Assembly: GCA_009840165.1 (NCBI GenBank)
Contig: VXOG01000023.1
Location: 1-64,000 of the forward strand
DNA length: 64,000 bases
Reading direction: 5' to 3'
Source: Chloroflexota bacterium
GTDB lineage: Bacteria; Chloroflexota; Dehalococcoidia; Lucifugimonadales; UBA3495
Made by a program: the position numbers and the translations under genes. The notes under the pieces are model-generated. The model saw only the letters and a list, made by a program, of their open reading frames with translations, did no database searches and was not told the DNA's origin. Below, one piece after another: positions 6,860-16,379 of this stretch (position 1 is its first letter; each line of letters begins with the position of its first letter).

Positions 6860-7396
6860 ATGGCAACCCAACAATACACTCTGGTCAACCCCGTTACCGA
6901 ACCCATCATCGCCCCCTTTGACGGCGCGCCCCGCCTGCCCTCGCTGGCCGGCACCCGCGTCGGCCTGATCGACGACAGCAAGCGCAACGCCGACGTGCTG
7001 TTGGAAGAGCTGGCCGAGGTGCTGCGTAACCGCTACGAGATCCGCGAGGTGCGCTGGCTCCGCAAGCCCAGCGCGTCCCGTCCTGCCGATCCGGTCGAGT
7101 TGGAGGAGTTGGTGGCCAACGTGGACTCGGTGGTGGTTGCCATCGGCGATTGAGGAAGCTGTAGCGCGTGCAGTGTGCACGACGGAATCCATGTTGAGCA
7201 GGCCGGCCTTCCCTCCGCCACCATTTGCACCGACCGGTTTATTCCCACTGCCAAAGGCATGGCCAAAATGTGGGGCGCGGAAGACTACCCTACCATTTTC
7301 ACCGAGCATCCCATCGAGAACCTGGATCGCCCGGCCCTGCGTGAACGCGCCGAGGGTCTGGCCACGGAGGTGGCCGCCATCCTCACCGGAGGCTGA
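6860..7396 (+). CDS. UGSC-family selenoprotein (in-frame TGA = selenocysteine)
   Basis: The frame is 179 codons when the TGA at 7151-7153 is read through. On both sides it encodes one continuous protein: residues 1-97 end DSVVVAIGD, then TGA, then GSCSACSVHDGIHVEQAG. The motif is U98-G-S-C101-S-A-C104, the defining motif of the UGSC selenoprotein family reported from marine metagenomes, in which Cys can replace Sec. The first half has a Rossmann-like pattern (RVGLIDDSKRNADVLLEEL). A strong ribosome site (gaggag) precedes the ATG. A SECIS-like hairpin starts 13 bases after the TGA. The U/C motif suggests thiol-redox chemistry, but the substrate is unknown. Without readthrough the product would stop at 97 residues. 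Confidence 0.9.
7167..7181 (+). promoter_or_regulatory. candidate bacterial SECIS hairpin (UGSC gene)
   Basis: A perfect 6-bp stem CGTGCA/TGCACG closes a 3-nt loop GTG (7173-7175). Nineteen bases separate the TGA from the loop. Bacterial SECIS elements are expected just downstream of UGA, with the apical loop about 16-37 nt away and a G at the start of the loop, and this one fits. Confidence 0.7.
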
Positions 7397-15458: not shown

Positions 15459-16379
15459 ATGAAGAAAGTAGTCAGCGAGATTAGCGGCGTGGTTTTCAGC
15501 CTGCCCTGGTTGGTCGCCAAAGATGAGGGACTGTTCGAGGTCGAAGGCATCGACATGGAATTTGTCCGCGCCCTGAACAGCGGGCGGGTTGCGCCTACGG
15601 AAAACCCCGACGAGGTGAACCCCATCCTGGGCCATGTGGCCTTCGAGGACGCGCAGGTCGCCATCTACCGCGCTTGAGAGGAAGGTCAGGTCCGTCGGGC
15701 CTATGAAAGCAAACAGGGCGCGCGCATCATCGCGCTCCGTTCCGCCGTCGCCAGCCAGGCCATCCTGGTGCGTCCGGACTCGCCCCACTACTATCCCGGC
15801 ACCCTGGGCAACCAACCAGTGGCGGTTCAGTTCCACTCCGGCTCCCATTATGTCGCTCTGCGCCTGCTGTCGGGCTACCTCCCCGAGGAAAAGATCAAAC
15901 TGGTTCATCACGGTTCTCCCCAGTACCGATTCGAGGCCATGATGAGCGGCGAAGTGGAAGCCGCCGCCCTCATGGAGCCCTGGATCACGCTGGCGGAGAA
16001 ACTGGGCTGTCGTCCCGTCTGCGAGGGACACTACCTCGGCGCCGAAAACGCCAGCGATAACATGGACGAGGACACGTTCTCCGCCATCAACCGGGCGATC
16101 GTCAAGGCAGTGGACCGGATCAACGCCAACAAGCGTAAGTACTTGCATTACCTAATCGATGAACCCCGGTTCGCCGCCGTCGCGGCGCAGTATGGCGGCA
16201 TCACTCCCGAGGACTTCCACCTCCCCCGCATCCGCTACTCATACAACACCCCATACACCGACGAGATAGTCGAGGATACCTACCACTGGATGGTTCGCTG
16301 GGGACTGCTCGATGGCGCGGCTTGCAGCGGAGAGTTAGTGGACAACCGCCTGGCCGAGCCCGCAGCCGCCGACGACTAA
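15459..16379 (+). CDS. NMT1/THI5-like substrate-binding protein with in-frame TGA (candidate selenoprotein)
   Basis: Reading through the single TGA at 15675-15677 gives 306 residues of one continuous periplasmic-binding-type fold. Before it stands EISGVVFSLPWLVAKDEGLF and HVAFEDAQVAIYRA; after it, EEGQVRRAYESKQGARI, then RSAVASQAILVRPDSP, PVAVQFHSGSHYVAL, EAAALMEPWITLAEKLGC and KRKYLHYLIDEP. Frame and family pattern continue unchanged across the TGA, so it is either a point nonsense mutation or Sec at residue 73. From memory, relatives have Cys at this place (ACEWG), which supports Sec. There is no signal peptide, so it may not be a conventional lipoprotein. A ribosome site (aggcggga) precedes the ATG. 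Confidence 0.7.
15688..15702 (+). promoter_or_regulatory. candidate bacterial SECIS hairpin (binding-protein gene)
   Basis: Stem AGGTCC/GGGCCT (one G-T wobble) closes a 3-nt loop GTC, with 16 bases between the TGA and the loop. Stem length, loop size, G at loop position 1 and distance all parallel the hairpin in the UGSC gene. Confidence 0.55.

Follow-up and report, generated by a model that had tools for sequence, protein, structure and literature searches.

A probable selenoprotein of periplasmic-binding-protein fold, encoded in Chloroflexota by a gene seemingly broken by TGA

The gene at positions 15459–16379 on the forward strand of a 64,000-nucleotide stretch of Chloroflexota DNA (the whole stretch being called the window below), which a stop codon seems to interrupt, is, judging by sequence comparison, almost certainly a selenocysteine (Sec) read-through gene. 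We place the probability at about 0.88 that it is an intact selenoprotein gene in which UGA codon 73 would be decoded as Sec under the direction of a bSECIS element located 11–25 nt downstream, within the coding region. SelA, SelB, tRNA-Sec and SelD of the host would supply this decoding, and Sec would stand in for the invariant Cys of one subfamily within the periplasmic-binding-protein fold. The frame contains exactly one internal TGA, at codon 73, which bears out the earlier note's description of a single TGA at 15675–15677 between two halves in the same frame, and reading through it gives 306 amino acids and a final stop. The features of the gene are as follows:

15459–16379, forward strand: whole coding sequence, 306 amino acids with Sec at residue 73 when TGA is translated as a residue; the final stop is TAA
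Just 5' of 15459: Shine-Dalgarno-like GAGAGGCGGG, recognized by eye
15672–15679, forward strand: GCTTGAGA, an 8-nt run spanning the TGA that ranks second in length among those invariant in the 34 aligned Sec genes
15675–15677, forward strand: TGA codon 73, read as Sec because TGA is kept in relatives and Cys is found in stop-free homologues
15678–16376, forward strand: coding part 3' of the Sec codon, under purifying selection by dN/dS
15687–15703, forward strand: invariant 17-nt stretch, comprising the putative bSECIS hairpin (15 nt) and one base on either side, the same in all 34 distinct Sec genes
15688–15702, forward strand: hairpin with stem AGGTCC (15688–15693) and GGGCCT (15697–15702), 6 bp, and 3-nt loop GTC (15694–15696)

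The same TGA recurs in relatives of the host. A protein search of 99 genomes, consisting of the window's own genome (G000) and its relatives, gave 35 full-length genes with exactly one internal TGA, distributed over 30 of the 99 genomes; the 34 genes other than that of the window, among which two paralogous types are present, are 68–95% identical to the window protein. In addition, a scan of a species collection yielded 17 loci, comprising 14 with TGA at codon 73, a single fragment that begins 3' of this codon, and two Cys homologues from Pseudomonadota. By record title, the TGA genes belong to MAGs of Chloroflexi and Dehalococcoidia, including two called "SAR202 cluster bacterium", and no copy was found in G003 and G006, both one-contig genomes of the same genus. 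The median dN/dS is 0.11 on the 3' side of the TGA versus 0.14 on the 5' side (169 of 561 pairs used); purifying selection, thus, acts on the coding part that follows the TGA. One further copy, L104 (G044:C62), is a decayed one, in which codon 73 is TAA and an internal stretch has been deleted, with the hairpin sequence still intact. Another copy, partial and located at a contig end (L105, G031:C126), carries TGA twice in frame, at codon 65 as well as at codon 73, and counts among the Sec rows of the joint alignment below; its additional TGA may be an assembly error or a second Sec.

Homologues without the stop have Cys at this position. Leaving aside the TAA copy of G044, 45 non-TGA matches span codon 73, of which 35 were fetched. 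The joint alignment, built from 74 distinct sequences out of 89, has Sec at the codon-73 column in 35 rows, Cys in 37 and TAA in one (L104), with one row uncovered, so that all 37 aligned stop-free homologues have Cys. When 400 genomes were drawn from the phylum, 31 contained a match, and Cys is present at the column in 11 of 29 wider Chloroflexota loci (L106–L134). The other 18, with another residue (6), a gap (7) or the column uncovered (5), are all weak, distant binding-protein matches, one of which, L117, is perhaps out of register, and, therefore, the Cys is a mark of the subfamily and not of the whole superfamily. Moreover, 14 plasmid records matched, and Cys is found in all five plasmid homologues looked at, which come from Geminicoccaceae, Mesorhizobium, Nostoc, Natrinema and Halomarina. 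The expectation of Cys at residue 73 in relatives, given in the earlier note as ACEWG, was right; the motif is UEEG in the window protein versus CEWG in the Cys forms.

A second case of TGA at the column is L156, from genome G258, with the context GUECGNNRR and a possible hairpin at a spacing of 18 (−6.2). SelA is present in G258, as is a SelD containing TGA, and no relatives of L156 were found in three other genomes of its family. In a tree of 81 rows, which excludes L045 (a fragment), L080 (where a stop occurs close to the end), L104 and L105, the Sec clade of 34 rows has a support of 100/100 and is placed among Cys rows, the nearest of them being L180, from Mesorhizobium (support 87/85). 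The tree requires two changes of the Cys/Sec label, and the second depends on one unreplicated gene, L156, which is on a long branch.

The host is equipped for Sec decoding, with SelA (551.8 bits), SelB (363.4), tRNA-Sec (66.4) and SelD (373.5) all over their cut-offs. Its SelD gene (locus L177, G000:C7:11329–12252, reverse strand) has one in-frame TGA, at AGUAAK, and constitutes a positive control for Sec decoding in this organism. Of the 30 genomes that carry a full-length TGA copy, 28 have SelA and 25 have SelB over the curated cut-off, and tRNA-Sec is counted in 25 at a threshold of at least 64 bits, which was set for this analysis because the model at E 0.001 matches all 99 genomes and all 14 controls, with 88 and 5 of them, respectively, over the cut-off. 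The TGA genomes in which some component was missed (G005, G023, G027, G036, G041, G047 and G049) are 56–85% complete; in the 75% complete MAG G047, SelA, SelB and a strong tRNA-Sec were all missed, and a TGA-containing SelD is present. Across all the genomes searched, SelA is over its cut-off in 84 of 99 and SelB in 86 of 99. The earlier note had proposed to check whether TGA is limited to genomes with the Sec machinery; the machinery accompanies most TGA copies, but restriction to Sec-decoding genomes is a weak contrast because most relatives decode Sec.

In PMC13188914, bSECIS elements are given a loop of 3–9 nt, a stem of 4–16 bp and a spacing of 16–37 nt, with a G among the first two loop positions. 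The hairpin after codon 73 has this geometry, with a spacing of 16 nt, 6 bp and the loop GUC. The earlier note had reported a 6-bp stem and a 3-nt loop beginning with G, which were found at 15688–15702 with GTC in the loop, and had located the hairpin 16 nt on, which holds for the distance from the TGA to the loop but not for the gap from the TGA to the stem, of 10 nt. The bSECIS energy limit of −7.5 kcal/mol is barely reached, at −7.6 with 30 or 40 nt folded, and other folds beat the hairpin when 50 or 60 nt after the TGA are folded; the isolated hairpin has a modest energy of −6.8 kcal/mol. In a background scan of the 1790 TGA triplets of the window, on both strands and in any frame, a hairpin that fits the model at −7.5 kcal/mol or below follows 135 of them (7.5%), and one at least as good as the −6.8 of the target follows 9.5%, so the hairpin was rejected as stand-alone evidence. 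In a single sequence it is not above chance, and it is conservation across genomes that lifts it above chance.

This conservation is seen in 34 distinct full-length Sec genes, whose pairwise nucleotide identity is 64–99%, with a mean of 75%, and in which the invariant runs are 17 nt for the longest, then 8 nt and then 5 nt. Because the hairpin pairs never vary in these 34 genes, no covariation was possible to see in it. There are 60 invariant amino-acid columns with at least fourfold degeneracy, and a single codon is used in all 34 genes at six of them, namely codons 72, 78, 79, 80, 81 and 199; codon 72, which is beside the TGA, is GCT in 34 of 34. Single-codon use, thus, affects four of four columns at codons 78–81 versus two of the 56 other columns (Fisher p = 3e-5, only indicative because the rows share ancestry). 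Codons 74, 75, 82 and 83, beside the frozen stretch, are as variable as elsewhere, and codons 70, 71, 76 and 84 are partly constrained too, so the freeze has no sharp end at the hairpin. The same QVRR peptide has a different codon spelling in the three Cys homologues L106, L108 and L179 (3/3), and the Arg-Arg codons are CGC CGC or CGG CGC in L106, L107, L108 and L179 and CGT CGG in the Sec genes. In the Mesorhizobium Cys homologue L180 (6998–7912), the codons are CGT CGG GCC and, counted by eye, 15 of the 17 positions of the 17-mer agree; therefore, genes with TGA are not strictly the only ones with the hairpin spelling, which in L180 may descend from a Sec ancestor, implying a Sec-to-Cys reversion, or may be due to chance.

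Elsewhere in the window, the UGSC selenoprotein frame around the TGA at 7151–7153 (forward strand) was confirmed and is open for about 182 codons; the hairpin of this gene has 6 bp, the loop GTG and a spacing of 19.

Like known bSECIS/SelB selenoproteins, the window gene has an in-frame UGA, Cys homologues and the Sec machinery in the genome, as well as a small loop beginning with G, 16 nt after the UGA. An ordinary nonsense mutation, which would leave a binding-protein pseudogene followed by a hairpin through chance, could appeal to how common such a hairpin is after TGA and to the existence of L104, a copy that has decayed, with TAA as codon 73 and a deletion inside the gene. It is, nevertheless, very improbable, given that the same TGA is found in 35 genes with otherwise open frames, that the downstream part bears the signature of purifying selection, that 17 nt are frozen at the hairpin, and that all 37 aligned stop-free homologues have Cys at the column. 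Reading of the TGA as Trp or some other residue by general suppression or recoding would also preserve the gene, since read-through alone leaves the residue unnamed; this is scarcely credible in view of Cys, and never Trp, in the 37 aligned and the five plasmid homologues, of the Sec machinery and the TGA-containing SelD of the host, and of the bSECIS geometry of the conserved element. The reading of the TGA as Sec, already put forward in the earlier note, is supported by the recurrence of TGA, the Cys at the column, the Sec machinery and the invariant hairpin.

The protein seems to be only distantly akin to NMT1/THI5-like and SsuA proteins, as indicated by weak profile matches and by the fold. 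Its Pfam scores are below the gathering cut-offs (19.2 versus 24.7 bits for PF13379 and 12.3 versus 20.5 for PF09084), and NCBIfam has no good match for it, the nearest model, SsuA, giving 18 bits versus a curated cut-off of 163.5. With the 33 subfamily sequences selected for the profile alignment A2, the four NCBIfam models matching some members are transporter families, and the best are SsuA and TauA (TIGR01728 and TIGR01729), with 16 and 9 of the 33 at E up to 0.001. The AlphaFold2 model has the binding-protein fold, with a mean pLDDT of 74.3 and a pTM of 0.79, and a pLDDT below 50 for residues 56–95, that is, around Sec73; a second model, with a Cys homologue first, was worse and also poor around residue 73. 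Foldseek matches of the model include SsuA, TauA, Thi5 and DszB, of which Thi5 and DszB are enzymes. A search of solved structures with the single protein gave no match at E up to 1, and the profile gave weak matches, the best being an exported protein, TauA and SsuA.

As for its location, strand 1 is predicted at residues 2–8, and the most hydrophobic N-terminal 15-mer (1.53, a modest value) corresponds to strand 1 and a helix of the fold. Since the predicted fold starts at residue 2, it leaves no room for a signal peptide, and the protein is probably cytosolic and not the exported part of a transporter, unlike the solved SsuA/TauA proteins, which are named periplasmic. Thi5 is a cytosolic enzyme.

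Thi5, the yeast pyrimidine synthase (PDB 4h6d and 4h67), is of the same fold class as the window protein, although sequence similarity is very weak and the register of the segment is uncertain, and the CCCFC motif present in the Thi5 chain is absent from the window protein. Its reactive residues Lys62 and His66, described in PMC10848271, follow a third-strand VDM motif, in what is taken as the fold region of the Cys/Sec of the subfamily. The register of Sec73 against Thi5 agrees in six of nine alignments and differs in three, and hhalign aligned only a C-terminal stretch. DszB (2'-hydroxybiphenyl-2-sulfinate desulfinase, PDB 2de2 and 2de3) is another enzyme with a binding-protein fold, matched loosely (TM about 0.5); its C27S mutant was solved with a substrate analogue or substrate, which points to a working Cys, and this Cys27 is close to the N-terminus, unlike Sec73. 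It is proposed, at about even odds, that the selenol would be situated close to the cleft, where strand 3 ends, in the fold region of Lys62/His66 of Thi5, and would react, as a nucleophile or a redox group, with a small organic molecule bound by the protein, in a catabolic role. The Sec form would then be a faster or more oxidation-resistant version of the Cys enzyme.

The genomic neighbourhood suits the catabolism of organic compounds, naming no substrate. A total of 43 contexts were mapped, corresponding to 34 Sec genes of this lineage, L156 and eight Cys homologues, with neighbours annotated from 20 representative proteins and many ORFs left unnamed. The neighbours include luciferase-like monooxygenases (17), SDR (10), S49 peptidases (10), TPP-enzymes (8) and GMC oxidoreductases (5). 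No constant partner gene was found among the 43 contexts, which vary between clades, and operon inference for the substrate was dropped for this reason. Regarding the Cys homologues, L046 adjoins Rieske and ring-hydroxylating subunits, L047 adjoins TauD-family and luciferase-like enzymes, and L150 and L151 adjoin binding-protein-like genes with a CMD protein. In two haloarchaeal plasmids, L182 (5962–8827) and L183 (5956–8815) comprise three tandem genes annotated as substrate-binding, the Cys homologue and two further ones, with no transporter genes beside them and with DUF4242 and aldehyde ferredoxin oxidoreductase genes in the neighbourhood. The Nostoc plasmid homologue L181 (1402–4179) is split by an IS1380 transposase gene.

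The function could also be one of ligand binding or sensing (of a metal, a thiol or a sulfonate), perhaps for a transporter, where the selenol would touch the ligand and no catalysis would take place. The binding proteins SsuA, TauA and PqqT are among the fold neighbours, and some genes lie close to transport functions: the Geminicoccaceae Cys homologue L179 adjoins an operon for an ABC transporter, with another one near the Nostoc homologue, and, by eye, oligopeptide-transporter-like genes are found near the Sec gene in L138, L171 and L172, and four loci have a gene for a branched-chain-type binding protein nearby. Furthermore, SaoX (NF040735) and SaoB (NF040727) are ABC substrate-binding selenoproteins and, as here, combine Sec with a protein of the binding-protein kind. 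However, their motifs are UxP and CUxxT versus UEEG in the window protein, which gave no match to NF040735 and NF040727 at E up to 10; the SaoX model matches 4 of the 33 selected subfamily members (best E 2.8e-5), by which SaoX appears to be a distant superfamily relative. A binding or sensing role is rather unlikely, considering that the predicted fold would not accommodate a signal peptide and that the transporter next to L179 has its own substrate-binding gene. The catalytic alternative is itself tentative, and we hold it at somewhat less than even: a cytosolic selenoenzyme on a periplasmic-binding-protein fold, with a catalytic Sec that would have taken the place of Cys in an older enzyme of the ancestor shared by this Chloroflexota family, and possibly again in the lineage of G258, for the breakdown of unusual organic compounds.

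The 2026 inventory of PMC13188914 comprises 119 selenoprotein families and subfamilies, most of the characterised ones with a thioredoxin-like fold, and its table, as far as covered here, contains no NMT1/THI5-like name or tag and no UEEG motif, unlike the window protein. The family is likewise absent from that table and from the new families of PMC12013277 (deep-Sep), in the parts covered, and term searches within PMC9312934, PMC5029168 and PMC2398784 gave no such family. A selenoprotein in connection with SAR202 or THI5 was not found in the literature searched, which lies outside most subscription journals, preprints, supplements and GenBank annotations, the publications pairing selenoprotein with NMT1 were unrelated by title, and further literature listings gave nothing on this family. 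The earlier remark that no selenoprotein is established in this binding-protein family, consequently, stands for the subfamily in the lists checked, but SaoX and SaoB are listed as Sec-containing substrate-binding proteins. We rate the selenoprotein family as new within the literature searched and its mechanism of incorporation as ordinary.

The finding contributes, from Chloroflexi MAGs, a selenoprotein family that is well supported and lacks the thioredoxin-like folds common among selenoproteins; programs that take TGA solely as a stop would annotate such genes as broken or truncated. Moreover, the invariance of the Cys/Sec indicates a reactive site, which becomes testable, in proteins recorded merely as "ABC transporter substrate-binding protein".
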